Source of the DNA: Dehalococcoidia bacterium CG2_30_46_9
GTDB taxonomy: Bacteria > Chloroflexota > Dehalococcoidia > GIF9 > AB-539-J10
Reading direction: 5' to 3'
NCBI GenBank assembly: GCA_001873005.1
Contig: MNYE01000053.1
Span: forward strand, 1-9,950
DNA length: 9,950 nt
Shown piece by piece: positions 1 to 9,950 of the stretch (the first letter of the stretch is position 1; each line of letters opens with the position of its first letter). Both the position numbers and the translations under genes were made by a program. The notes under the pieces were generated by a model that was not told where the DNA came from, searched no databases, and saw only the letters and a program-made list of their open reading frames with translations.

Positions 1-151
1 CTTGAGGGTAGCACAAAAACAAAAAAGAGTCCAGTAGACAAAATCAAAAGGTGCACAATACGGAGAGGAAAGTGTTTCGACTTCCTCGGGTGGTTAAAGT
101 AACATTCGGTTAAGACAGAATGCCTGAAATTCTCTCGAATTTTTACCGAAA
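1..151. other. Left-edge sequence without a supported gene
   Basis: No gene is supported here. One plus-strand frame is open from the edge to a TAA at 100-102 (33 codons), too short to call. An imperfect hairpin (arms 65-73 and 80-87, one bulged base) lies downstream of the aldolase when read on the minus strand, but has no adjacent T-run in either direction, so it is not called as an intrinsic terminator. Confidence 0.4.
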
Positions 152-234
152 ACCTATTGACAGAAATAATGTCTTAGTTTTATACTATTCTTGGCGATTA
201 GAACCATAAGGTTTTTAGGAGAACTAAACTATTA
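152..234 (+). repeat. Direct repeat copy A (83 bp), left of the aldolase-pfk-IS block
   Basis: This 83-bp stretch reappears in the same orientation at 4151-4232 with four substitutions and one single-base indel (about 95% identity). It contains a -35/-10 pair, a stretch TTTTTAGGAGA resembling a ribosome binding site, and no obvious open frame. It ends 5 bp before the aldolase stop codon. The 7-mer ACCTATT opens the copy (152-158) and occurs again directly after it (234-240), a possible short target duplication or the trace of a longer tandem array; copy B has only the opening 7-mer. It may be a duplicated promoter segment or a small non-autonomous element. No clear terminal inverted repeats are visible. 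Confidence 0.85.
157..186 (+). promoter_or_regulatory. Sigma70-like promoter in repeat A, antisense to the aldolase
   Basis: TTGACA at 157-162 and TATACT at 181-186 are separated by 18 bp, a good match to a housekeeping promoter. The predicted start is near 193. Transcription would run into the 3' end of the aldolase gene on the opposite strand, as no plus-strand gene follows. It may be inactive, or give an antisense RNA. Confidence 0.5.
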
Positions 235-239
235 CCTAT

Positions 240-1607
240 TTACAAGGGAGATGACTCGACTACGTACCTGCTAATCAGCTCCACAGTATCTACTACATTG
301 AGCTTCCGGAAGAGTAAGGAGAATCGGTTTTCGAGGGCCTCACGTATGTCTATCAGATTCTCCTCAGGCAGGTTCCACATTTCCTTCTTGAAATCGCCAA
401 ATCCTTTCTTTCGGGTTTTATAGAGGAATTGCTCATTGGTATCCTTTATCTCTTTCTCACTGATATACTTACGTTGCAGATGTTCGTAGATCTTAGTTAG
501 CAATTCCTTGGGAAAACGTGGGCTATCGTAGATCAGGTTTTGAAATCCTGTAGCCAGGTGAACTTCCAACGTGCCAACCTCCGGGAACATGTCAAATGCC
601 TCGTCGGGAAGAGTAGAGGCTCCATGCTGCACGGCACCCCCCATCCCATATTCCTCTCGAGCCACTCTAGATAGCTCTTTCAGAGTCTGGAAGTCAATCT
701 CAATTTCGGCAATCGAGCCATCAGGTAAAACAACTCCTCCATGCGTTGTGCCAGTCTGTACACTTATTTTCGAGATTCCCTTGACATTTGGGCCAAACAG
801 ACTGAGATATCCTGCCATAAAGGTCATGAGATCCCTCACGGTGCTATTCTTCTTGCCTACTTCACCAATTTCACCCCCGACCGAAATGGTTGTTCCTCCA
901 GGCTCCAGGTCACGTATGAATTTGGTCATATCCACAGTGACCAGGCAATTTTTTTCCTGTTGCTCCTCGAGCTTACGCCTTTCTAAATCCACAAGGGTGG
1001 AGGCATCTATATCGATGTTTAGAAACCCAGCGCCTATTGCCTCCCGGATTAGCTCCTTGATTGCGTTCAATTCCTTTCTGCCCTGAATTAAGTTCAGGGT
1101 ATATTTGCTCCGACTGACCTGAAAGTGGTCTCCCTGGATGAAAACAGGGCCGGCGAACCCCTCTCTAATCGCCGCCGCCAGAACACAGGCGGCATATTCA
1201 GCTGGTCTTTGGTCCGTGTAGCCTATCTCAGAGCGAGCAATTTCGAAGATGAACGCACCAACTCTATGTTTCAGGGCTGCCCTGAAGACCGCTCTGGCAA
1301 CCTGGTAAGTTAGCCCGCGTATATTTATGGCCGGGACCGTTACATTATGATAGAGTCCTTTGCCAGCCGCCTCGTAAAGGTTCTGAATACTTGCTGGGAA
1401 AATCCCAAGGTTTGAGGCTAGTTTCCTAATTTCCCTGCGGCAATCTTCTTTGGCACCGTCATCAGGGCCAAAAACAGCACTTTCAACAAGCGAGTCAATC
1501 TTGTCAGGGGAGATTGACTCACCTTTTCTCAGCCGTGGGCTCTCCCCTGATAGCAGCTTCCCAGATTGCGTCGTTTCTTTTGATTCAGAATCTCTGTTCA
1601 CCGTCAT
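240..1607 (-). CDS. Class II fructose-bisphosphate aldolase family protein, long form
   Basis: A metal-dependent class II aldolase, most likely cleaving or forming fructose 1,6-bisphosphate from glyceraldehyde-3-phosphate and dihydroxyacetone phosphate in the cytoplasm. The pattern of a (beta/alpha)8 class II enzyme is visible: GDH with Asp160/His161 (catalytic Asp and metal His), the segment IDIDAS around 198-203, GGEIGEVG with Glu246, TGTTHGG with His289 (metal ligand) and AVQHGAS with His328 (metal ligand). At 455 residues it is clearly longer than the usual 280-360; the extra length is a polar N-terminus (about 1-55) and a C-terminal helical part after about 370. The ATG at 1605-1607 lies inside the end of the phosphofructokinase gene (23-nt overlap), suggesting translational coupling. 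The polar first 40 residues allow a later start. The neighbouring phosphofructokinase supports fructose bisphosphate as substrate, but tagatose bisphosphate or another sugar phosphate cannot be excluded. Confidence 0.8.
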   Translation of the reverse strand: MTVNRDSESKETTQSGKLLSGESPRLRKGESISPDKIDSLVESAVFGPDDGAKEDCRREIRKLASNLGIFPASIQNLYEAAGKGLYHNVTVPAINIRGLTYQVARAVFRAALKHRVGAFIFEIARSEIGYTDQRPAEYAACVLAAAIREGFAGPVFIQGDHFQVSRSKYTLNLIQGRKELNAIKELIREAIGAGFLNIDIDASTLVDLERRKLEEQQEKNCLVTVDMTKFIRDLEPGGTTISVGGEIGEVGKKNSTVRDLMTFMAGYLSLFGPNVKGISKISVQTGTTHGGVVLPDGSIAEIEIDFQTLKELSRVAREEYGMGGAVQHGASTLPDEAFDMFPEVGTLEVHLATGFQNLIYDSPRFPKELLTKIYEHLQRKYISEKEIKDTNEQFLYKTRKKGFGDFKKEMWNLPEENLIDIREALENRFSLLFRKLNVVDTVELISRYVVESSPL

Positions 1608-2715
1608 GCCTCAAGAGAGTTCGGCGTCCATTATATCTTTCAGTATCATAACGTGTCTCAACGTTTACAAAATTCGGCTTTCCTATGACCTTCTCAAGCG
1701 GGCAAGCCGTAATCTTGCCATTTCTATAGCACACCATCTTACCGAAGTCCTTCATTACTACTAAGTCAACAGCCGCAATGCCAAAATACCTACCCATTCT
1801 CCGATCATAGGCACATGGAGCGCCACCCCGTTGCAGATGACTCAGAACTACGCTTCGTGTTTCTAGCCCCGTGCCATTGCTGATTTCTCTAGCTAGGAAA
1901 TCAGCAATTCCGCCCAGGGTCTTGTGGCCGAAGTCGTCTAGGCCTTCTTCTCTTACGAATTCTAATCCTCCCATTGGCTTCGCCCCCTCGGCGACTACTA
2001 TGATGTCGTACCTAGCGCCCGCCTTCCTCCCTTCTACAACCAGCGCATTCACCTTTCCAGTGGAAAAGTCATATTCTGGGATAAGGATAATAAAGGCTCC
2101 ACTAGATTCTCCACCTTCTAGAGCTAGCCAGCCGGTGTTTCTCCCCATAGTTTCTACAACAAATATCCTCTTGTGCGAGCCAGCGGTGGTTCTCAATCTA
2201 TCGATTTCCTCAGTTATGACATTTAGAGCCGTCTCGAACCCCAGCGTATAATCAGTTTCGGGCAGGTCCTTGTCAATTGTCTTGGGAATACCAACAACAT
2301 TCACTCCCTGCTGTATTAGCCTACAAGCGACCTGTAGCGTGTCGTCCCCACCGATGACTATCAGCGCTTCTAAGCCAAACTTTTCTATGTTAGCTAATAC
2401 CGTTTTCGATTGGTCATTCTGGGGATTATAGGGATTTGTACGCGACGTCCCCAGCATGGTGCCACCATATCTGTCCCAGGTCCTGACTATCTCCTCATTC
2501 AGCGGCACGATGTACCCACGAGGGACATCAGGACCCACAGATTTCTCATATATTAATCCTCTCCATCCATCCCGAATCCCCAAAACCTCGTACTGAATCC
2601 CCTTTTCGCGTCCCAATCGCTCATCCAGCGCGGTTTTAACTATCCACTTGATCGCCGGATTGATGCCGGCACAGTCTCCACCACCAGTCAGAATACCTAT
2701 TCTGCTCCTTCTCAT
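1585..2715 (-). CDS. pfkA: 6-phosphofructokinase, predicted pyrophosphate-dependent
   Basis: Phosphorylates fructose 6-phosphate to fructose 1,6-bisphosphate in the cytoplasm. Numbered from the ATG at 2715 (376 residues), the protein has the N-terminal GILTGGGDCAG loop, GGDDT with Asp124-Asp125, PKTIDKD at 144-150 and MGR at 180-182, a substrate-contacting motif. In this family Gly at the second position after GGD and Gly in GTIDND mark ATP enzymes, whereas Asp (GGDD) and Lys (PKTID) mark PPi enzymes; both PPi markers are present, so a reversible PPi-PFK is predicted. An in-frame TTG at 2754 would add 13 residues, but it is the first triplet of the -35 box TTGACA. The ATG directly precedes the conserved RIGILTGGG and is preferred. 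It is first in a two-gene operon with the aldolase. The ISL3 element begins 68 bp upstream of this ATG. Confidence 0.92.
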   Translation of the reverse strand: MRRSRIGILTGGGDCAGINPAIKWIVKTALDERLGREKGIQYEVLGIRDGWRGLIYEKSVGPDVPRGYIVPLNEEIVRTWDRYGGTMLGTSRTNPYNPQNDQSKTVLANIEKFGLEALIVIGGDDTLQVACRLIQQGVNVVGIPKTIDKDLPETDYTLGFETALNVITEEIDRLRTTAGSHKRIFVVETMGRNTGWLALEGGESSGAFIILIPEYDFSTGKVNALVVEGRKAGARYDIIVVAEGAKPMGGLEFVREEGLDDFGHKTLGGIADFLAREISNGTGLETRSVVLSHLQRGGAPCAYDRRMGRYFGIAAVDLVVMKDFGKMVCYRNGKITACPLEKVIGKPNFVNVETRYDTERYNGRRTLLRHDGEQRF

Positions 2716-2725
2716 AACAATAGGT

Positions 2726-2754
2726 ATATTAGGAGGCAAGCTTTCTGTTGTCAA
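2726..2754 (-). promoter_or_regulatory. Promoter of the pfk-aldolase operon, leaderless arrangement
   Basis: On the minus strand TTGACA (2754-2749), a 17-bp spacer and TAATAT (2731-2726) form a near-consensus sigma70 promoter. Ten bases separate the -10 box from the ATG at 2715, so the start should fall about 3-5 nt before the ATG. No Shine-Dalgarno sequence lies between. This indicates a leaderless or nearly leaderless mRNA and argues against the TTG start at 2754. Only 28 bp separate the -35 box from the insertion sequence, so the promoter was spared. Confidence 0.7.
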
Positions 2755-2782
2755 GGACGCGATTTGAATGGCTCTCCGTCAA

Positions 2783-2798
2783 TTAGTGTGAAAAACCT
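2783..2798 (+). repeat. Left terminal inverted repeat of the ISL3 element
   Basis: TTAGTGTGAAAAACCT matches the inverted right end at 15 of 16 positions. It also encodes the last residues and the TAA stop of the transposase on the other strand. Confidence 0.8.
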
Positions 2799-4009
2799 CC
2801 TGAAGCTTTAGTGCTGGCAGCTATCTCATTATTTGTAAGAGGTATCCTCCTTCTCAGGTTATCGACGTTACGGTACCCGTAAGCCATTCGTTTGATGACC
2901 TTTATCCTGTTGTTCTTCCCCTCTACAAAGCCGTTGGTTACACGATGGTTAAAGTAGTTGAGAATCTCATTGCGCCAGTTTCTGAATATAGAAAGCACAG
3001 CTCTAAACTCCTTAAATCCACTCTTACGAACAGATTCCTCCCACTGATAGAGAGAGGCTTCCGCCTCAGCACGACTTGAGATTCTATACCATTCCCTAAG
3101 ACCTTCCTTTAACCTCCAGGCTACAGCCAGCTCAGGATAGTAGCTGAATAGATGGCCTAGCCTTATCTTTTCCTCATCATTCAGGCTCTCAGCTTTACGC
3201 AAGAGGAGGTAGCGACTATGGAAAAGAAGCCACCTCTTGCCCTTGCCTTCCCTATTTTGCAATTTTGTTCGCACTTTACCCAAAGCCTGGTTAACATGGA
3301 CTATCACATGGAACTTATCTACCACAATGTTAGCTTTGGGCAAGCACATCTGGACAGCTTGTCTGAATGGCTCATGCATATCCATGACCACCACCTCAAC
3401 TATCTCAGGATCAGGAAGGGCGGTGAAATACTTCTCCAGTTTACTCTTACCACAGCCCTCAACTATACCCAAAACCTTCCTTCCCTCAATGTCGCTTATA
3501 GTGGTATCAAACATCCTCTTCTTCACCGAAAATTCATCAAGTCCTATTACCCTGCTGGCTTTGGGCTTCCCCTCATCAACTCCTAACTCCAGGGCGGCTT
3601 CCTCGGTAAAGCTTCTCCTCACCAGACTTTCACTTACTCCTTCTTCTTTGGCCACCCGGCTTATTGCTTGATGACTTGCCCGCTCACCAAGATATTTCCT
3701 CAACCGTTTAGTCGATCTTCTCCTGGGACAAAAGATTTCATCCGGCTCAGTAAATACTTTGCCACAGGAAAGACAGCGAAAACGCCTTTTCTCTAAAGTA
3801 AGAATCACAATCTTGTCCCTCAGCTTCCTGTCTTTCTTACGTTGAAATGTACTTGCATGCTTTCTCACCATCATGCTGCCACAATGAGGACAAGCTACTT
3901 TTTCTACCCTGTATCTCACGGTAACCTCAAAATGATCTTTTAGTTCTGTCTGTCCCAGGATCATTAGCTCTGGCAATCCCATGGCTACTGCGATACAATC
4001 GTCTTGCAC
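2783..4009 (-). CDS. ISL3-family transposase
   Basis: Catalyses cut-and-paste movement of the surrounding element. The 408-residue protein shows the ISL3 layout: N-terminal zinc finger (Cys40/Cys43 in CPHC, Cys79/Cys82 in CLSC, then FCPRR), a helix-turn-helix region around 100-135 (SHQAISRVAKEEGVSESLVRR), and a DDE domain with Asp158 (IGLDEFS), Asp210 (VVMDMHEPF) and Glu363 (FVEGKNNRIK), followed by the family signature VIKRMAYGYRN. The start is GTG at 4007-4009, chosen because AAGGAGGT (4024-4017 on the minus strand) sits 7 nt upstream. No frameshift or stop interrupts it and all catalytic residues are present, so it could be active. Its stop is 28 nt upstream of the pfk -35 box, and read-through would enter pfk. 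Confidence 0.95.
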   Translation of the reverse strand: MQDDCIAVAMGLPELMILGQTELKDHFEVTVRYRVEKVACPHCGSMMVRKHASTFQRKKDRKLRDKIVILTLEKRRFRCLSCGKVFTEPDEIFCPRRRSTKRLRKYLGERASHQAISRVAKEEGVSESLVRRSFTEEAALELGVDEGKPKASRVIGLDEFSVKKRMFDTTISDIEGRKVLGIVEGCGKSKLEKYFTALPDPEIVEVVVMDMHEPFRQAVQMCLPKANIVVDKFHVIVHVNQALGKVRTKLQNREGKGKRWLLFHSRYLLLRKAESLNDEEKIRLGHLFSYYPELAVAWRLKEGLREWYRISSRAEAEASLYQWEESVRKSGFKEFRAVLSIFRNWRNEILNYFNHRVTNGFVEGKNNRIKVIKRMAYGYRNVDNLRRRIPLTNNEIAASTKASGGFSH

Positions 4010-4016
4010 CTGTTTT

Positions 4017-4105
4017 ACCTCCTTTTTGTTTAGTTTCGCTTAATCACTAAAACTACAGGAGGTGGCAGGTGCCTTTCAATGGCTCATCACCTCCTTCCCG
4101 GCACC
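4017..4105 (-). promoter_or_regulatory. Transposase leader with competing inverted repeats around the Shine-Dalgarno site
   Basis: Read on the minus strand the leader contains, in order, GGTGCC (4105-4100), AGGAGGTG (4095-4088), GGCACC (4073-4068), CACCTCCT (4064-4057) and the transposase Shine-Dalgarno AAGGAGGT (4024-4017). The first pairs with the third and the second with the fourth, an interlocked arrangement. The fourth can instead pair with the real Shine-Dalgarno over 7 bp. A mini-frame ATG AGC CAT TGA directly follows the upstream AGGAGGTG. The pattern suggests translation control of the transposase by alternative folding; this is inferred from base pairing only. Confidence 0.4.
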
Positions 4106-4111
4106 ATCTAA

Positions 4112-4127
4112 AGATTTTTCACACTAA
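4112..4127 (-). repeat. Right terminal inverted repeat of the ISL3 element
   Basis: On the minus strand TTAGTGTGAAAAATCT, one mismatch to the left end. The outer boundary is set by where the two ends stop matching. Confidence 0.8.
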
Positions 4128-4150
4128 AAAGTGTAGACCCATTTAATTCG

Positions 4151-4232
4151 ACCTATTGACAGAAATAATGTCTTAGTCTTATACTATTCTCGGCGATTGG
4201 AATCATAAGTTTTTAGGAGAACTAAACTATTA
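4151..4232 (+). repeat. Direct repeat copy B (82 bp), upstream of alaS
   Basis: Second copy of the sequence at 152-234, same orientation, about 95% identical, beginning 23 bp beyond the insertion-sequence end. Together the copies bracket the aldolase, pfk and ISL3 element. Here the repeat lies upstream of alaS and probably represents the native promoter region of that operon. It contains AGGAGA at 4215-4220, but no standard start codon within reach, so that stretch is not a ribosome binding site for a visible gene. The rest of the 308-bp gap between the transposase and alaS holds the insertion-sequence end and the alaS-proximal -10 box. Confidence 0.85.
4156..4185 (+). promoter_or_regulatory. 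Sigma70-like promoter in repeat B, directed at alaS
   Basis: TTGACA (4156-4161), 18-bp spacer, TATACT (4180-4185). The predicted start near 4192 gives an alaS leader of about 125 nt. Its box sequences and spacing are the same as in repeat A. Confidence 0.6.
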
Positions 4233-4305
4233 TAAAAGTCCTTGAAAATACGCCGTTTTGAGGCAAAGCCCCTTAATGACTAGTGCAGTTATTTTTGTCG
4301 CATAC

Positions 4306-4311
4306 TATAAT
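4306..4311 (+). promoter_or_regulatory. Consensus -10 box directly before the alaS start codon
   Basis: A perfect TATAAT ends 6 nt before the GTG start at 4318, so the expected transcription start coincides with the first base of the gene (leaderless mRNA). No Shine-Dalgarno sequence precedes the GTG. The -35 region around 4282-4288 is poor, which lowers confidence. Confidence 0.45.
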
Positions 4312-4317
4312 TAGTAA

Positions 4318-6999
4318 GTGACTAGCGACGAACTCAGGCAAACCTTTCTGAACTTCTTTCAGGATAGGGGGCATAAGATTATCCCTGGTTCCTCTCTTGT
4401 TCCGCATGGAGACCCTACTTTATTACTCACTACTGCTGGTATGGTACAAATAAAACCATATTTTCTCGGGTTAGAAGTCCCTCCCAGCCAAAGGTTAACC
4501 TCCTGTCAAAAATGCTTTCGCACTACCGATATAGATTCTGTAGGTGACAACAAGCATCTTACCTTCTTTGAGATGCTGGGCAATTTCAGTGTGGGTAACT
4601 ATTTTAAAAGAGAGGCTATTTCCTGGGCGTGGGAATTTGTTACTAAGTATTTGAATTTATCGGAGGAAAGGCTCTGGATAACCATTTATCTTGATGATGA
4701 AGAAGCTTTTGCCCATTGGCGAGAGGTCGGAGTTTCTACCGAGAGAATATTGTGCTTTGGTCAAAAGGATAATTTCTGGGGACCGGCAGGAGATTCCGGA
4801 CCTTGTGGACCATGCAGCGAAATCCATTATGACTTGGGTGAGGAGTTTGGTTGTAATAGACCTGATTGTAAGCCCAATTGTGATTGTGGTCGCTTTTCCG
4901 AGATATGGAATCTGGTATTCACTCAATACAATCAAGATCGCAGTGGACAACGCACGCCTTTACCCAAGCCAAACATTGATACCGGGATGGGGTTGGAAAG
5001 AACCCTGGCGGCTATTCAAGGTAAGTCTTCTCCTTACGAAACAGACCTATTTTCTCCTTTGATAAACAAGGTTTGTCAGTTAGCCGGGAAAGAGTATGGT
5101 CAGGATGAGAATGTTGACCGAGCCATGAGAATTGTTACTGAACATGGGCGTGGCATCCCCTTTCTTATTGCCGATGGTGTTATGCCCTCCAATGAAGGGA
5201 GAGGATATGTCCTGCGACGGATACTTAGGCGTGCTTCACTTTTTGGTAGAAGGCTGGGCTTAGATAAGCCTTTCCTGGGAGAATTTGCCAACGTTGTTGT
5301 CGAGAAAATGAAACATGTATATCCCGAGCTGATAACTAATGAAGCCCTAATTACGGACGTTATCAAAACAGAAGAAAACAAATTTATCTCCACGCTAGAG
5401 ATCGGGCTTGCTCTGGTGGAAAACTTAATTGATGATGCCTGCAAAGAGAAGCGGGATTACCTTAAAGGTGAGGAGATATTCCGGCTTTATGACACATATG
5501 GTTTTCCTAAAGAGCTAACTGCTGAAATAGCCAGAGAAAAAGGTCTCTCCATAGATTGGGAGGGTTTTCAAGCTGAGATGGAGAGACAGCGGGAAAGGGC
5601 TAGGGCAGCATATAACATCACTCTAGCTGCGACGGTGGGCTTAAGAGGTAATCTTTCCGTTGTCAAAATTCCTTCTAGCACGAATTTCGTTGGCGACAGA
5701 ACGCTTAAGCATCAATCCACTGTTGTGGTCTTGCTTCCCGAGAGCGAATGGCCAAAGAACAGAGTAGATTCTGTCTCTCAGGGTCAGTATGTAGGGGTTG
5801 TACTGCGTGAGACTCCTTTCTATGGCGAGATGGGTGGACAGGTGGGTGACACCGGGGAAATCCGTGGTAAAAAAGGAAGAATCACTGTTACTAATGCCGT
5901 CAGGCATACAGTGAGTGGCAGCGAGCTCGTAGTTCATCAAGGGGGAGTCGTTGAAGGACATATATTTGTGGACGACGTTGTCGAAGCCGAAGTGGACGAA
6001 CACCGCCGTCTGGATATTGCTCGCAACCACACGGCTACCCACTTGCTCCAGGCTGCTCTAAGGCAGATACTAGGCAGCTATATTCAACAAAGAGGTTCAT
6101 TGGTGGAGCCCGAGAGACTCAGGTTCGATTTCCCTCAATTATTACCACTTTCCCAGGAAGAAGTGAAAAAAATTCAGCAATGGGTTAATGAAAGAATACG
6201 ACAAAACTTGCCGGTGAAAACGAAAATCATCCCCTATAATGAGGCTATTGCCGAGGGTGCTATCGCTTTGTTTGAGGAAAAATATGGAGAGACGGTTCGG
6301 GTAGTAGAAATTGCTGAGCCAGTGATAAGTAAAGAACTCTGTGGTGGCACCCATGTGAAATCAACGGGGGAAATTGGCACCTTCCTTATAACCAGCGAAG
6401 GCAGTATTGGCACTGGACTACGTCGTATTGAGGCGATTACCGGAAGAGTTGCGGAATCTTTGATAGATACTCGTTTTTCTTCTCTCCGAAGCATGGCTGA
6501 TGCGCTAGAAAGTCCGCTGGAGAAGGTTCCTGAGAAGGTAAAAACCCTTATGGAAGATCTGGAAAAGGAGCGTAAGCGCTCGTTATTATTAGAAAGGGAA
6601 CTTTCACGCAGAATGCTGGAATCTCTGCTCAAAGGAGTGGAGAGGGTAAACGGGGTAATGGTCATAGCAGCCAGGATGCCACCTTTATCTATGCCCATCC
6701 TCAGAGAAACAGGTGATATGCTGCGAGACAAGTTGAGAAGCGGGGTGATAGTCCTGGCTACAGTCTACGACAATAAGCCAAATTTCTTAGCTATGATAAC
6801 CCCTGACTTAGTAGCCAGGGGACTTCATGCTGCTGATATTATCAAACAGGTAGCCAGGGTTACTGGTGGTGGGGGAGGTGGTAAAGCAGACATGGCTCAG
6901 GCAGGAGGTAAAGACCCATCCAGAGTTGATGAGGCTTTGAAGTTGGTGAAAAATATCATCGCCAGGCGAGTTTCCTCTCCTGTCAAGAATGAGGATTAG
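4318..6999 (+). CDS. alaS: Alanine--tRNA ligase
   Basis: Charges tRNA(Ala) with alanine and hydrolyses mischarged Ser- and Gly-tRNA(Ala) in the cytoplasm. At 893 residues it is full length (bacterial AlaS is about 875). Order: class II aminoacylation core with HKIIPGSSLVPHGDPTLL from about residue 19, the FEMLGNFS stretch, GLERTLAAIQG and NEGRGYVLRRILRRA; editing domain with the zinc-site motif HTATH (His571, His575) and CGGTH (Cys675, His679); a coiled-coil linker around 720-770; and a C-terminal C-Ala domain ending in a glycine run 850-855 followed by KADMAQAGG. The GTG start is supported by MTSDELRQTFL, the usual N-terminus of the family, although no Shine-Dalgarno sequence is seen. It heads the rightward operon with ruvX, aroE and aroC. 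Nothing in the sequence supports a T-box leader. Confidence 0.98.
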   Translation: MTSDELRQTFLNFFQDRGHKIIPGSSLVPHGDPTLLLTTAGMVQIKPYFLGLEVPPSQRLTSCQKCFRTTDIDSVGDNKHLTFFEMLGNFSVGNYFKREAISWAWEFVTKYLNLSEERLWITIYLDDEEAFAHWREVGVSTERILCFGQKDNFWGPAGDSGPCGPCSEIHYDLGEEFGCNRPDCKPNCDCGRFSEIWNLVFTQYNQDRSGQRTPLPKPNIDTGMGLERTLAAIQGKSSPYETDLFSPLINKVCQLAGKEYGQDENVDRAMRIVTEHGRGIPFLIADGVMPSNEGRGYVLRRILRRASLFGRRLGLDKPFLGEFANVVVEKMKHVYPELITNEALITDVIKTEENKFISTLEIGLALVENLIDDACKEKRDYLKGEEIFRLYDTYGFPKELTAEIAREKGLSIDWEGFQAEMERQRERARAAYNITLAATVGLRGNLSVVKIPSSTNFVGDRTLKHQSTVVVLLPESEWPKNRVDSVSQGQYVGVVLRETPFYGEMGGQVGDTGEIRGKKGRITVTNAVRHTVSGSELVVHQGGVVEGHIFVDDVVEAEVDEHRRLDIARNHTATHLLQAALRQILGSYIQQRGSLVEPERLRFDFPQLLPLSQEEVKKIQQWVNERIRQNLPVKTKIIPYNEAIAEGAIALFEEKYGETVRVVEIAEPVISKELCGGTHVKSTGEIGTFLITSEGSIGTGLRRIEAITGRVAESLIDTRFSSLRSMADALESPLEKVPEKVKTLMEDLEKERKRSLLLERELSRRMLESLLKGVERVNGVMVIAARMPPLSMPILRETGDMLRDKLRSGVIVLATVYDNKPNFLAMITPDLVARGLHAADIIKQVARVTGGGGGGKADMAQAGGKDPSRVDEALKLVKNIIARRVSSPVKNED

Positions 7000-7083
7000 A
7001 AAGGTGTCTCTTGCCCACTTCACCCCTTATCTGGCGAGGGACAATTAGAAAGGAGGCCCTCCCACCTTATTTGGCAAGGGGCG
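6995..7083 (+). repeat. Imperfect tandem duplication in the alaS-ruvX spacer
   Basis: ATTAGAAAGG occurs at 6995-7004 and 7044-7053, and CACCCCTTATCTGGCGAGGG at 7021-7040 recurs at 7061-7080 with four mismatches. Two units of about 49 and 40 bp therefore fill the spacer, the second lacking roughly 9 bp. The first unit begins inside the alaS stop codon region, so the duplication extended the spacer between the genes. Confidence 0.65.
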
Positions 7084-7095
7084 TGAGGATGAAAA

Positions 7096-7593
7096 ATGCG
7101 CAGTTTAGGACTGGATGTCGGAGATAAAAGGATCGGAGTGGCGGTAAGCGATCCGGAAGGAACTATAGCTTTTTCTCTCACCACAATTGCTAACGGAGAC
7201 GAAGACATAGTGATAGAGGATGTTATTAAGCTTGCGGAACAATATGAGGTAGAATGCATTGTGATTGGTTTACCTCTTTGCCTGAATGGCACGCTGGGGC
7301 AACAGGCTAAAAAAGTATTAGCTTTCGCTGATAAATTGTCATTGCGAGCCAAGCAAAGCAATCTCGACCATGTTGATATACAAACGTGGGACGAACGACT
7401 CTCTACCGTAGCGGCTAATCGCTTAATGATTGATGCTGCGGGGAGAAATAAACTGCGGTGCGGTAGCAAAAAGCAAAAAGCAACTAAAATCAACTTTTCG
7501 GGTAAAACCGGAACAGATGCTATGGCAGCCGCTTTTATTCTCCAGGGTTTCCTCGATAGCATTAAAGAAAAGAAGCAATGCCAAAGTTTATAA
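7096..7593 (+). CDS. ruvX: Putative pre-16S rRNA nuclease / Holliday junction resolvase-like YqgF
   Basis: RNase H-fold nuclease of the RuvX/YqgF family, implicated in 16S rRNA 5'-end maturation and earlier proposed as a Holliday junction resolvase. Visible motifs: LGLDVGDKRIGVAVSD with Asp7, VIGLPLCLNG at 56-65, WDERLST at 98-104, and a C-terminal TDAMAAAFILQGFLD with Asp141. At 165 residues it is longer than the usual 135-150. Two places explain this: LSLRAKQSNL at 81-90, encoded by a dispersed repeat, and a basic stretch at about 118-137 encoded by short slippage-type repeats (AGCAAAA twice at 7465-7478). The ATG is supported by GAGG at 7085-7088, 7 nt upstream. The 3' end overlaps aroE by 16 nt, implying coupled translation. 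Confidence 0.9.
   Translation: MRSLGLDVGDKRIGVAVSDPEGTIAFSLTTIANGDEDIVIEDVIKLAEQYEVECIVIGLPLCLNGTLGQQAKKVLAFADKLSLRAKQSNLDHVDIQTWDERLSTVAANRLMIDAAGRNKLRCGSKKQKATKINFSGKTGTDAMAAAFILQGFLDSIKEKKQCQSL
7337..7365 (+). repeat. Dispersed repeat (TGTCATTGCG...GCAATCTC) inside ruvX
   Basis: A 29-bp sequence beginning TGTCATTGCGAGCCAA and ending AAAGCAATCTC shares both ends with 9358-9413 in aroC. Outer bases ATTGC and GCAAT can pair. It is read in frame as residues 81-90 of RuvX, between the helix FADK and the conserved WDERLST, where relatives of the family have a short loop. Confidence 0.7.
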
Positions 7594-8453
7594 GTCTTAT
7601 CGGTTATCCAGTCAAACATTCCATCTCCCCTTATTTTCAACAGGCGGCTCTGGACTATTATCACCTTGACATTCGTTATGAAGCCTGGGAAATAAGCCCA
7701 GAAATGCTTGAGGTAACAGTAGCTAAATTGAGAGAGCCGCAAAATCTAGGGGCTAATGTAACTGTGCCTTACAAGGAGGCAGTCCTACCTCTTTTGGACC
7801 AGGTTGACAATTTGGCAGGTTTAATTGGCGCCGTCAATACTATACTTAAAAGGAATGGTAAGCTCTGGGGTTACAATACTGATGCCTATGGGTTCATAGA
7901 AGCACTCAAACAACACGGTAATTTTGAGCCCGAGGGCAAAAAAGTGGCCATCCTGGGTGCTGGTGGAGCAGCTAGGGCAGCTAGCTTTGCTCTGGTGCAA
8001 AACAAAGTAAGGTTCCTTCTTATTGTCAATCGTACTTTAGAGCGGGCTCAGACGCTGGCAGATAACCTGAGAGAGTACATATCCCAGGCTGGGTGGCAAG
8101 CGGAGGTTGCTATTTTACCTTGGCAAGGTTTAACTTCGAGTCAGGTCTTTGATGATTGTCAGCTTATAGTTAACTGCACTACGATAGGAATGAACCATAG
8201 TTCTTATGAAGGACAATCACCTCTGGGTGTGGAACTGATTCCTAAAGGGATATTGGTCTATGATTTAGTGTATAATCCTTATATTACACCTCTGCTAAAG
8301 TTGGCCGAGCAGGCTAGTGCCAACATACTTAGTGGCTTGCCTATGTTGGTATATCAAGGTGCTGCTTCGTTTGAACTCTGGACAGGAAGGAAAGCTCCAA
8401 TTGACATAATGTTTAACAAGGCTCAAGAAGTGTTAGTAGGAAGTAAACTCTAA
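7578..8453 (+). CDS. aroE: Shikimate dehydrogenase (NADP+)
   Basis: Reduces 3-dehydroshikimate to shikimate with NADPH in the shikimate pathway. The 291-residue length is normal. Seen in order: shikimate-binding KHSISP (Ser15, Ser17), NVTVPYK with the catalytic Lys66, AVNT with Asn87, GYNTDAYGF with the catalytic Asp102, the Rossmann loop GAGGAAR (127-133), NRT (151-153, the NADP-phosphate contact typical of AroE), and GLPMLVYQGA with Gln260. The ATG at 7578 lies within the end of ruvX (16-nt overlap) and is followed by the usual KFISLIGYPVKHS. Its last codons form part of the inverted repeat preceding aroC. Confidence 0.97.
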   Translation: MPKFISLIGYPVKHSISPYFQQAALDYYHLDIRYEAWEISPEMLEVTVAKLREPQNLGANVTVPYKEAVLPLLDQVDNLAGLIGAVNTILKRNGKLWGYNTDAYGFIEALKQHGNFEPEGKKVAILGAGGAARAASFALVQNKVRFLLIVNRTLERAQTLADNLREYISQAGWQAEVAILPWQGLTSSQVFDDCQLIVNCTTIGMNHSSYEGQSPLGVELIPKGILVYDLVYNPYITPLLKLAEQASANILSGLPMLVYQGAASFELWTGRKAPIDIMFNKAQEVLVGSKL

Positions 8454-8533
8454 GCACTAAACTCTACCCTGAACTTGATTCAGGGCTAAACAAATTTGTT
8501 TAGAGTTTAGAAATTAGAATTTAGGATTTATTA
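8444..8533 (+). repeat. Nested inverted repeat with 7-bp periodicity between aroE and aroC
   Basis: Arms 8444-8466 and 8501-8523 are inverted copies (19 of 23 positions, with a perfect 10-bp CTAAACTCTA/TAGAGTTTAG core at 8457-8466/8501-8510). Between them lie two more hairpins: 8467-8485 and the perfect palindrome CTAAACAAATTTGTTTAG at 8486-8503. The right part also reads as five heptads starting at 8499 (TTTAGAG, TTTAGAA, ATTAGAA, TTTAGGA, TTTATTA), and the left arm shows the inverted heptad. The element covers the last aroE codons and ends 3 bp before aroC, supplying its AGGA ribosome binding site (8523-8526). In RNA it could fold into a branched structure and may act as an mRNA processing or attenuation site. 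Confidence 0.8.
8467..8485 (+). repeat. 19-bp hairpin repeat, spacer copy
   Basis: CCCTGAACTTGATTCAGGG has a 7-bp stem and a 5-nt loop. Its exact reverse complement occurs at 9000-9018 inside aroC. Confidence 0.85.
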
Positions 8534-8536
8534 AGA

Positions 8537-9736
8537 ATGGGACAATTTCGCTTTCTCACTGCCGGGGAATCCCATGGAAAGGGACTGACAGCCATAGTTG
8601 AAGGCATGATAGCCGGGCTTCCTTTAGACGTAGGTTATATCAACACGGAGCTTAAGCGACGTCAGCAGGGCTATGGACGTAGTTCCCGTATGCAGCTAGA
8701 AGAGGATAAAGCTGAAATTATCTCAGGAATTTATCATGGGCTTACAACAGGCAGTCCCATTTCTCTTTTCATCTCTAACCGAGACTGGCGGGAGACTGAG
8801 CCAGTAACCTGTCCCCGTCCTGGGCATGCTGACCTAGCTGGAGTAACTAAATACGGTCTCGAAGATATTAGACCGATAATGGAGAGGGCCAGTGCTCGAG
8901 AGACAGCCGCTAGAGTAGCTGTTGGAGCTATAGCCAAGAGGTTTTTAGAACAATTTGGCATTGCTATTCATAGCCACACTATGGCAATTGGGCATGTTAC
9001 CCTGAATCAAGTTCAGGGCTTGGCCTCTTGTCATTGCCAACCAACCTCTATAGATTGGCAGCGTGTAGAATCTTCTCCAGTTCGTTGCTCTGATACCAAA
9101 TTAGAAAAGGAAATTTTGGCGACTATTGATAAGGCTAAAGCTGATGGAGATACTTTGGGGGGCATTTTTGAGGTAATCGCCACAGGTGTCCCTATCGGAT
9201 TAGGCAGCCACGTGCATTGGGATCGCCGTCTCAATGGTAGAATTGCTCAGGCGATAATGAGCATCAACGCCGTGAAAGGGGTAGAGGTTGGTATGGGATT
9301 TGCTCTAGCTGCGCTGAAAGGCTCCCAAGCCCATGACATTATTGAACCTCGCCCTCCTGTCATTGCGGTGAGCCAAAGTCCTGAGCGTAGCAAAGGAGAA
9401 GCGAAGCAATCTCTACCTTGGCGCCATGCTACCAACCGTGCTGGTGGCATAGAAGGTGGCATAAGTAATGGAGAGCCAATTGTAGTCAGGGCTGTGGTTA
9501 AACCAATTGCCACTTTAGCTAAGCTCTTGCCCTCCGTAGATTTGCACAGTGGCCAAGTAGCCCAAGCCCATTATGAGCGCAGCGATGTTTGCGTTGTTCC
9601 CGCTGCCGGTGTAATCGCCGAAGCTATGCTAGCCATTGTTTTGGCTGATGCCATGCTGGAGAAATTCGGCGGAGACAATCTAAAGGAGACCAATGCAAAC
9701 TATCACAATTACCAATTGTCTTGTCATCGTTTCTGA
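8537..9736 (+). CDS. aroC: Chorismate synthase
   Basis: Converts 5-enolpyruvylshikimate 3-phosphate to chorismate, the last step of the shikimate pathway, with reduced FMN. The three family signatures are visible: TAGESHGKGL with His13, RPGHADLAG with His97 plus ARETAARVAVGA, and ERSDVCVVPAAGVIAEAM with Asp350. His13, His97 and Asp350 correspond to the known catalytic residues. At 399 residues it is in the upper normal range, and two segments look foreign: TLNQVQGL at 155-162 (19-bp hairpin repeat) and residues 275-293 (TGTCATTGCG-type repeat), the latter just before the conserved TNRAGGIEGG. The frame stays open through both. ATG at 8537 has AGGA 10 nt upstream. The tail NANYHNYQLSCHRF is not a family feature. 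Confidence 0.96.
   Translation: MGQFRFLTAGESHGKGLTAIVEGMIAGLPLDVGYINTELKRRQQGYGRSSRMQLEEDKAEIISGIYHGLTTGSPISLFISNRDWRETEPVTCPRPGHADLAGVTKYGLEDIRPIMERASARETAARVAVGAIAKRFLEQFGIAIHSHTMAIGHVTLNQVQGLASCHCQPTSIDWQRVESSPVRCSDTKLEKEILATIDKAKADGDTLGGIFEVIATGVPIGLGSHVHWDRRLNGRIAQAIMSINAVKGVEVGMGFALAALKGSQAHDIIEPRPPVIAVSQSPERSKGEAKQSLPWRHATNRAGGIEGGISNGEPIVVRAVVKPIATLAKLLPSVDLHSGQVAQAHYERSDVCVVPAAGVIAEAMLAIVLADAMLEKFGGDNLKETNANYHNYQLSCHRF
9000..9018 (+). repeat. 19-bp hairpin repeat inside aroC
   Basis: CCCTGAATCAAGTTCAGGG is the exact reverse complement of 8467-8485. It is translated as TLNQVQG within residues 155-161 of AroC. Ten bases after it, TTGTCATTGC (9028-9037) matches the start of the other repeat class, so the segment may be a compound insertion. 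Confidence 0.85.
9358..9413 (+). repeat. Dispersed repeat (TGTCATTGCG...GCAATCTC) inside aroC, long form
   Basis: This 56-bp segment shares TGTCATTGCG and GAGCCAA at its left end and AAGCAATCTC at its right end with the 29-bp copy in ruvX; the middle carries extra GAGCGTAGC/GAAGCG sequence. It encodes residues 275-293 of AroC. The shared bases are read in a different frame here than in ruvX. Confidence 0.7.
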
Positions 9737-9776
9737 TGACGGATTATAATCATTGAGATTTTACAGGATGAGAAAG

Positions 9777-9950
9777 ATGAAACTGCCTGTTATTCTCACA
9801 GAAGGTGAAGATGGTTACATTGTAGCCGAAATACCAGTACTCCCTGGGTGCATTTCGCAGGGTAAGACTAAAGAGGAAGCGCTGGCTAATATCAAAGAAG
9901 CTGCTGAACTCTGCCTGGAAAGTATGGAAGAGGAGGGCTGGACACTATCT
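9777..9950 (+). CDS. HicB-like (UPF0150 family) protein, N-terminal part
   Basis: The first 58 residues are visible and the gene runs off the right edge. The sequence MKLPVILTEGEDGYIVAEIP followed by LPGCISQGKTKEEALANIKEA is the typical partial RNase H-like fold of HicB antitoxins and their solitary relatives. HicB normally neutralises the mRNA-cleaving toxin HicA. No HicA frame fits in the 40 bp upstream, so a partner would have to lie downstream beyond the window; otherwise this is a solitary HicB-like protein. The start at 9777 fits AGGA at 9765-9768 and the family N-terminus; an in-frame ATG at 9768 would add three residues. Confidence 0.85.
   Translation, partial: MKLPVILTEGEDGYIVAEIPVLPGCISQGKTKEEALANIKEAAELCLESMEEEGWTLS

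Follow-up and report, generated by a model that had tools for sequence, protein, structure and literature searches.

Two families of short hairpin repeats, here termed M28 and P19, recur throughout the genome of Dehalococcoidia bacterium CG2_30_46_9 and are read through inside protein-coding genes, among them ruvX and aroC. Both are probably REP-like mobile repeats, present within ORFs as predicted, tolerated loop peptides. This reading is based on the identity of the repeats, their copy numbers, the readable frames and the absence of the segments in relatives, and further on AroC loops that the model predicts with low confidence and on the differing repeats at the AroC sites in close relatives. 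M28 and P19 have likely spread in the manner of REPs, as mobile DNA that encodes no transposase itself, with copies that would move via insertion or copying. Copies within ORFs are predicted to be translated into loop peptides that host enzymes tolerate and that presumably remain in the mature proteins. One hairpin may also nest in the loop of another, so that the same site could be refilled repeatedly.

The window, meaning the whole analysed stretch of 9,950 nucleotides (contig MNYE01000053.1, positions 1 to 9,950), contains the following features:

240..1607, minus strand: class II aldolase-like gene, P19 host (Pfam F_bP_aldolase, 51 bits)
1081..1099, minus strand: P19 in the aldolase-like gene, peptide TLNLIQG
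7096..7593, plus strand: ruvX, Holliday junction resolvase RuvX / YqgF family (Pfam RuvX, 116 bits; NCBIfam TIGR00250)
7337..7365, plus strand: M28 copy in ruvX, peptide SLRAKQSNL (genome pattern match)
7578..8453: aroE, between ruvX and aroC
8467..8485, no strand assigned: P19, non-coding, between aroE and aroC
8537..9736, plus strand: aroC, chorismate synthase (Pfam, 400 bits; 399 aa)
8993..9052, plus strand: AroC site A, residues 153-172, loop with differing repeat peptides in relatives
9000..9018, plus strand: P19 in AroC, peptide TLNQVQG (CCCTGAATCAAGTTCAGGG, direct reading)
9029..9048, plus strand: decayed M28 fragment TGTCATTGCCAACCAACCTC adjoining the AroC P19 (matches the ruvX copy at 88% over 17 nt)
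9350..9412, plus strand: AroC site B, residues 272-292, second loop with differing repeat peptides (block pLDDT 69 and 51)
9358..9413, plus strand: M28 arms with enlarged core in AroC, peptide VIAVSQSPERSKGEAKQS (TGTCATTGCGG...GAAGCGAAGCAATCTC, direct reading)

Direct reading of the DNA confirmed what the initial annotation had reported, namely that repeats are read through in ruvX (7337-7365) and twice in aroC (9358-9413 and 9000-9018). Its description of the two genes as adjacent does not hold, as aroE (7578-8453) lies in between. Three further copies had been overlooked, the P19 units at 1081-1099 and 8467-8485 and the decayed M28 at 9029-9048. At gathering thresholds, Rfam gave no match in the window.

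Repeat families and their coding copies

M28 has the layout TGTCATTGCGA-core-GCAATCTC, made up of a 5-bp outer stem (ATTGC/GCAAT), a variable hairpin core of 7-37 nt and a CTC tail, with a full unit of 28-56 bp. P19 is a 19-bp unit with the layout CCCTGAA-N5-TTCAGGG. Pattern searches of the 1.08-Mb source genome, which is 82.75% complete, returned 40 exact M28 matches and a total of 227 P19 copies, while the reversed control patterns returned 0 in both cases, so that the repeats exceed chance. A lack of additional copies, which would have spoken against the initial interpretation, was thus not observed. In 59 further genomes of the same order, P19 occurs 0-3 times each, compared to 227 here, and the P19 matches listed outside the source genome mostly carry a single recurring spacer, unlike those in the source genome. 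The P19 burst is best read as recent and unusual, found in one genome among 60 of the order.

The TC tag of M28 is preceded by G in 48 of 49 copies and then by T in 41 of 49; both letters were free in the script's pattern, although many of the loci came from a search in which the G was set. The M28 stem begins with complementary AT, letters that were fixed by the search pattern. Counting CGTC and TGTC as tags, 14 of 192 P19 copies have one 0-3 nt from their stem, and 7 of 192 have one at the control distance. The closing base pair of P19 is complementary in 187 of 192 copies, compared to 118.8 expected, and distinct M28 cores from the wider listings (n = 110) are paired at 450 of 834 positions, with at most 403 in 1000 shuffles. 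Together, these observations indicate that the hairpin is kept while its letters change. Same-length M28 cores in the fetched loci gave no signal (pairing 0.702, 0.700 shuffled). No core of 6 nt or less was found among the fetched loci, and two such short forms were listed in other genomes (G087 and G177). P19 sits between exact M28 arms in 3 of 192 copies.

To place P19 relative to ORFs, 192 of the 227 genomic copies were collected. Of these, 70 lie within ORFs, 27 near an ORF end and 95 outside long ORFs, whereas 974 of 1500 random positions fall inside ORFs. The 70 internal copies correspond to about 57 ORFs, distinguished via their last 40 residues. The first 80 copies gave 26 host ORFs, 21 of which match an NCBIfam family, including MetG, AroA, UvrA, UvrB, MnmA, RibF, CarB, FtsK, PriA, GlmM, DnaG, PurL, TrpF, Ffh and trigger factor; AroC and AroA each have a single match in the genome. 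In the collected sample alone, about 57 ORFs of this Dehalococcoidia genome are predicted to encode a P19 peptide, housekeeping enzymes included, where the repeats are predicted to yield small, tolerated loop peptides. The high insertion density that had been noted for ruvX and aroC extends across the genome (70 of 192 P19 copies in ORFs) and is not special to these two genes.

One of the three frames on each strand of P19 holds a TGA. Among the 122 non-internal copies, none stops a frame that is open for 60 codons on both sides. Another six of the non-internal copies are flanked by long open stretches whose frame differs between the two sides, and the ends of these stretches that were printed may be gene boundaries. 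Gene-breaking copies were presumably removed by selection.

Repeat sites in chorismate synthase

The predicted AroC model matches solved chorismate synthases, with a top E value of 8.8e-44. It was built from a 68-row alignment (mean pLDDT 88.0), as the model from 24 rows was unusable (45.9). In site A, pLDDT falls below 50 at residues 159-161 and 163-167. At this site, P19 adjoins the decayed M28 fragment, and relatives such as L046 carry an intact HCERSEAIS at the position of that fragment. Many relatives have a 12-residue form of site A that resembles decayed HCERSEAIS and looks old. Among the 120 nearest AroC proteins, P0002 alone also has the AroC P19. At site B, the M28 copy at 9358-9413 has GCGG in place of GCGA, which leaves it outside the 40 exact copies.

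The AroC proteins P0001 and P0002 are identical at 353 of 358 residues outside sites A and B, yet their site B is unlike. Using site classes that were hand patterns set after viewing the data, the site-B class differs in 87 of 165 AroC pairs at 92-94% identity, and a quick tree gave 51 and 28 site-class changes, compared to shuffled means of 79.3 and 49.8 (60 shuffles); these change counts are rough due to the hand-made classes and the quick tree, and tree errors inflate them. Shared 14-mers gave no excess and were set aside, being common to at least three loci in 8 of 110 cases for site A, 6 of 110 for site B and 10 of 110 for the controls, where the control was the best of up to 20 segments per gene and the pool included loci fetched for their repeats. 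Judged by their sequences, sites A and B are reused hotspots, with the same two loops hosting successive repeats in AroC relatives. The nested refilling of these sites probably accounts for their unlike contents in close relatives, and the differences between near-identical relatives suggest that the repeats are likely still moving.

Mode of spread and age of the copies

The REP-linked Y1 transposase (PF01797) is absent from the source genome, at 82.75% completeness, whereas 14 of the order's 60 genomes have it. No clear target-site duplication was found among the 192 P19 copies. The dinucleotides flanking P19 are equal in 37 of 192 copies, compared to 13.7 expected, and none of 2000 shuffles reached this number. 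Of these 37, 26 are GA...GA, and among the 16 such copies printed, 10 are, by eye, the inner ends of an outer hairpin, so that the excess is in part explained by hairpin nesting.

Empty sites were compared by DNA for the aldolase-like gene, Ffh and AroA, and by protein alone for MetG. P19 was found in 0 of 3 near-full-length relatives of the aldolase-like gene and in 0 of 29 Ffh relatives, and the nested AroA insert in 0 of 29 relatives compared. The methionyl-tRNA synthetase MetG holds one P19 (+5 aa) and one M28 (+11 aa), each found in 0 of 119 relatives, all with the same 5- and 11-residue gaps. Relative to the nearest relatives, the net gain is 15 nt in MetG, 9 nt in the aldolase-like gene and 3 nt in Ffh, in a comparison of few genes whose nearest relatives share 70-83% protein identity. 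As these gains are below the 19-nt length of P19, the repeats may have arrived otherwise than by simple insertion.

An alternative is that the repeats spread by copying rather than transposition. Host letters would be overwritten through template switching or gene conversion, and an existing half-site would often be completed. The small net gains fit such a process, as do the half-sites seen in relatives. By eye, AATTCAG is already present at the place of P19 in the aldolase relatives L271 and L272, and the Ffh gene of the source genome (G000) reads CAAGTTCA where its nearest relative L281 reads CAAGCTCA. Likewise, the RuvX of L074, which lacks the segment, shows CTATCCTTGCGA at the M28 start point. 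CarB, trigger factor and GlmM, aligned to solved structures, have no gap at the repeat itself, and both the transposase not being found and the target-site duplication not being clear are consistent with copying. However, few genes are comparable at the identities given above, a clean insertion could be shortened by later deletions, and the gains of RibF (+5 residues) and PurL (+7 residues) over solved structures are also expected from a clean insertion of 15-21 nt. We regard copying as a serious contender, albeit an unlikely one. Its stronger form, in which active, transposase-free hairpin copying writes 19-nt palindromes over half-matching sites, essential genes included, and swaps cores, we consider rather doubtful; if true, enzyme loops would change faster than the remaining protein mutates.

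The segments could also be former repeats that were vertically inherited and domesticated, with their movement now ceased. The RuvX segment speaks for this. The M28 letters at 7337-7365, TGTCATTGCGAGCCAAGCAAAGCAATCTC, lie inside the 165-aa RuvX ORF, and the segment is occupied in all 120 of the nearest matches listed; among 63 loci with RuvX, it is present in 16, including the own genome, and absent from 47. Relatives with the segment residues carry recognizable M28 DNA that has decayed to varying degrees, diverging stepwise from the repeat, and thus the same repeat DNA and not unrelated DNA, the finding that would have counted against insertion. As far as the DNA can tell, the RuvX segment is an old insertion common to relatives. 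The occurrence of a 12-residue site A in the AroC of many relatives and the presence of the AroC P19 in both P0001 and P0002 point in the same direction, and together with RuvX they indicate that some copies are not recent. That movement has ceased altogether is nonetheless improbable, as P19 is abundant only here among 60 genomes, both MetG insertions are private with respect to 119 relatives, and site B is unlike between alleles that are otherwise identical at 353 of 358 residues.

Ordinary length-variable loops of biased composition, resembling repeats by coincidence or convergence, would be in line with the flexibility of AroC sites A and B and their varying length in distant chorismate synthases too, but are very hard to reconcile with exact DNA copies across the genome, zero counts for the reversed patterns, and the identical 5- and 11-residue MetG gaps in 119 of 119 relatives. 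Equally implausible is a bypass in which the segments are excised from the RNA, hopped by the ribosome or protein-spliced, leaving proteins unchanged: mRNA hairpins could in principle be skipped, and the insertions do lie in conserved enzymes, but internal copies are in open frames by definition, no copy was found in a gene with the TGA frame, and only translation of the segments would lead one to expect such a bias against TGA.

Relation to known palindromic elements

In the portions of the literature consulted, the known hosts of coding palindromes are Rickettsia, Wolbachia and some species rich in REPs, and no report of such palindromes in Chloroflexi was found in the open-licence PMC listings covered. 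The best reading by analogy is that M28 and P19 are a putative Chloroflexi counterpart of Rickettsia palindromic elements (RPEs) and intragenic CGTC-REPs. According to the excerpts cited, RPEs (Ogata et al. 2000, 2002) are repeated palindromes of several families, found both between genes and in-frame within conserved proteins and tolerated by their hosts (PMC2229807, PMC10969869, PMC3733652). The likeness to RPEs noted in the initial annotation stands insofar as M28 and P19 are also genome-wide palindromes, located between genes as well as in-frame in conserved proteins, but the units are far shorter, with 19 bp (P19) and 28-56 bp (M28) compared to 105-146 bp (PMC2229807, in part). Further differences are the other phylum, the burst of 227 copies in one genome, and the two enzyme loops, which carry many differing repeats across relatives.

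For CGTC-tagged REPs, to which RPE-4 and RPE-6 of R. conorii belong, the sections consulted of Di Nocera et al. 2013 (PMC3733652) report intragenic copies, sometimes two per gene, a missing dedicated transposase, and an occurrence in five phyla, with Chloroflexi not among them in those sections, where GTAG repeats are reported in Chloroflexi. Their form comprises an 8-9 bp stem, a loop of mostly 4-5 nt and a CCA tail. M28 shares the tag in its TGTC form and the copies within genes; the AT at its stem start, as in these REPs, was set by the search pattern. It differs in its outer stem of 5 bp, the variable core of its hairpin and its CTC tail, and most P19 copies have no tag. GTAG REPs with RAYT, as covered in the same sections, are likewise short repeated hairpins and in part intragenic; in contrast, M28 ends in TGTC, not GTAG, and the source genome lacks the Y1 transposase. 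The repeats described here would make the movement of transposase-less REPs testable, including whether new ones still form, which the consulted sections of PMC3733652 leave open, as well as the tolerance of core enzymes for foreign peptide and a possible gain of function by such loops.

MITEs such as ERIC and Correia resemble M28 and P19 as non-autonomous repeats with in-frame fusions in some (PMC2229807, PMC10969869, in excerpt). They differ in their length of 70-300 bp and their terminal inverted repeats of 15-30 bp (PMC3733652, in part), and several have target-site duplications, as stated in the excerpt of PMC2229807. Wolbachia palindromic elements form several in-frame regions within one gene, in addA, addB and priA, and these regions are longer, at about 170-840 nt (PMC4224334, in the part consulted). 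Of these genes, priA is a P19 host here as well.

Two hairpin families in the window and the genome

Genome G000 of Dehalococcoidia bacterium CG2_30_46_9 comprises 1.08 Mb in 138 contigs (82.75% complete), and the window is its contig C126. The genes follow in the order aldolase-like (-), phosphofructokinase (-), ISL3 transposase (-), alaS, ruvX, aroE and aroC. The initial annotation had placed one copy of the hairpin repeat M28 in ruvX and one copy each of M28 and the shorter hairpin P19 in aroC; all three were found in the window sequence at those positions, together with two additional P19 palindromes.

Repeats and transposase in the window
1081-1099, P19 palindrome within the aldolase-like gene (additional)
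2783-4009, (-) strand, ISL3-family transposase (Pfam DDE_Tnp_ISL3)
7337-7365, M28 in ruvX
8467-8485, P19 palindrome, intergenic between aroE and aroC (additional)
9000-9018, P19 in aroC
9029-9048, decayed M28 fragment adjoining the AroC P19
9358-9413, M28 in aroC

The ends of the ISL3 transposase region are partly complementary (2749-2798 versus 4112-4161). The aldolase-like gene, the phosphofructokinase and the transposase lie between the two copies of a direct repeat about 80 nt long (152-234 and 4151-4232, spaced 4.0 kb), which contains a promoter-like TTGACA...TATACT stretch.

M28 consists of GTCATTGCGAG, up to 30 letters and GCAATCTC, with 40 exact copies in G000, where the reversed pattern used as a control gave no match. 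Because TC is preceded by G in 48 of 49 copies and, before that, by T in 41 of 49, the repeat starts TGTC. Of the genomes sampled, 44 of 60 from the order and 22 of 151 from the phylum contain the pattern, G000 included in both. Its arms are constant and its core is variable. Among 110 distinct cores, hand-picked from pattern-match listings of G000, order and phylum genomes, 450 of 834 positions self-pair (1000 shuffles: mean 372.5, maximum 403); a same-length shuffle restricted to the fetched loci gave no pairing excess.

P19 is CCTGAA-N5-TTCAGG plus a closing pair. Of its 227 copies in G000, 192 were taken with 25-nt flanks from the window and fetched loci; in these the closing pair is C-G 141 times and T-A 45 times, and it is complementary in 187 of the 192 against 118.8 expected. 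Each of the 59 further genomes from the order, none of which belongs to the genus of G000, has 0-3 copies; P19 has therefore multiplied in the lineage of G000 but in none of the others sampled. Hairpins are also nested: P19 lies between M28 arms in the AroA (EPSP synthase) gene of G000 (L182), and elsewhere inside CCCTGA...GATTCAGGG or ATGCTGA...GATTCAGCAT. Besides GA...GA, recurrent P19 flank pairs in G000 are AG...TA (24 copies), some of which sit in GTAGTGCGAG...TAGCCTCGTGC, and TG...TT (19 copies).

Readable copies inside genes and empty sites in relatives

Of the 192 P19 copies, 70 are internal to ORFs (minimum 150 codons, with 25 or more on either side of the copy), 27 lie closer to an ORF end and 95 outside. 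Among 1500 positions drawn at random from the same DNA, 974 fell inside ORFs. The internal copies represent about 57 ORFs, as distinguished by their last 40 residues. P19 carries a TGA in one of its three frames on either strand, and in none of the 122 non-internal copies did the repeat's stop interrupt a frame with 60 open codons on either side. Six of these 122 are flanked by long frames of differing phase, which we took for probable gene boundaries. All seven M28 copies examined inside genes are read in one orientation, with RuvX assigned by the real gene rather than the longer antisense frame. Among the ORFs from the first 80 P19 copies, 21 of 26 with P19 or M28 matched NCBIfam at 1e-10, including methionyl-tRNA synthetase (MetRS, MetG), EPSP synthase, UvrA, UvrB, MnmA, RibF, CarB, FtsK, PriA, GlmM, DnaG, PurL, TrpF, Ffh and trigger factor.

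The MetRS of G000 contains a P19 peptide, PELDSG (+5 residues), and an M28 peptide, CHCEGRSPVAIS (+11 residues); neither segment occurs in any of 119 relatives, all of which show the same two gaps. The P19 segment is likewise missing from 29 of 29 Ffh relatives and from the three near-full-length aldolase-like relatives compared, a gene with any match in 10 of 60 genomes, G000 included. The nested AroA insert is missing from all 29 relatives, one of which (L316, from G030, a different genus within the family) shows a longer, different insert there, containing GTCATTCTGAGC. AroA matches in genus g5 contain in-frame TGA codons, two in L319 (G034) and one in L325 (G024).

RuvX is unlike these four cases, in which relatives are without the repeat. 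Its M28 segment is filled in all of the best 120 of 7938 matches; across 63 loci with RuvX, it is present in 16 (one being G000) and absent in 47, and its DNA diverges from the repeat to varying degrees among relatives. At the same place in the RuvX of Dehalococcoidia bacterium RS_16_13 (L046), M28-like arms enclose about 60 residues in which several types of repeat are nested.

Variable loops of chorismate synthase

Differing repeat peptides occupy AroC sites A (residues 153-172) and B (272-292) among the nearest 120 proteins listed and 110 loci: HCERSEAIS, KRPKNLAQDK, FAQGKL and TLNQVQG at site A, and VIASEAKQS, SSSLRGASATKQS, SPERSEG and LSLEGRGLG at site B. Both are short loops in distant relatives. 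The predicted model of the window AroC (mean pLDDT 88.0) matches solved chorismate synthases and places the two sites in low-confidence loops between regular elements.

The closest other AroC in the protein database is P0002 from Chloroflexi bacterium CG08_land_8_20_14_0_20_45_12 (96% identity); further matches are named Dehalococcoidia. Outside the two sites, 353 of 358 residues are identical between P0001 and P0002; the two proteins share site A and differ at site B save for the terminal KQS. More broadly, site-B class differs in 87 of 165 pairs at 92-94% identity. On a quick 140-row tree, class changes numbered 51 at site B (shuffled mean 79.3) and 28 at site A (shuffled mean 49.8). By eye, AroC of L083 (Chloroflexota) and L116 (Nitrospirae) carries other repeat-like peptides at both sites, and the loops may therefore be landing sites more generally.

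Proposed mode of spread and relation to known palindromes

The copies, their readable frames, their absence in relatives and the differing repeats between close relatives are direct observations. M28 and P19 would have spread as REP-like mobile DNA, with selection removing copies that break a gene and the remaining in-gene copies probably translated as loop peptides. No Y1 transposase was found in G000, at its 82.75% completeness, and the flanks of the 192 P19 copies show no clear target-site duplication.

A serious rival is that the hairpin spread by a copying or conversion process instead of simple insertion. Wherever near relatives permit comparison, the gain is smaller than the 19-nt P19, which counts against simple insertion: +15 nt in MetG (protein alignment; nearest relative 83% identical), +9 nt in the aldolase-like gene (70%) and +3 nt in Ffh (77%). 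By eye, AATTCAG already stands at this place in two aldolase-like relatives that lack the repeat (L271 and L272), and the nearest Ffh relative (L281) has CAAGCTCA in place of CAAGTTCA in G000. Set against solved structures, which are distant comparisons, RibF gains 5 residues and PurL gains 7; CarB, trigger factor and GlmM show no gap at the repeat itself, and UvrA shows several gaps around it. Copying or conversion therefore stays a serious rival to simple insertion. In L271, L272, L281 and the RuvX locus L074, all without the repeat, a near-match to part of it stands in place; judged by eye, half-site seeding by such pre-existing near-matches is possible.

PMC3733652 deals with REPs tagged GTAG or CGTC and equates the Rickettsia palindromic elements (RPEs) RPE-4 and RPE-6 of R. 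conorii with CGTC repeats. It reports intragenic copies in repair and translation genes. Transposase genes are stated there to have no association with CGTC repeats, for which five phyla are listed, Chloroflexi not among them. M28 shares the tag but differs from the repeats described there in stem length and tail, whereas most P19 copies are without the tag. We file M28 and P19 as protein-coding palindromes outside both RPE and CGTC-REP, set apart from RPEs by the greater length described for the latter.
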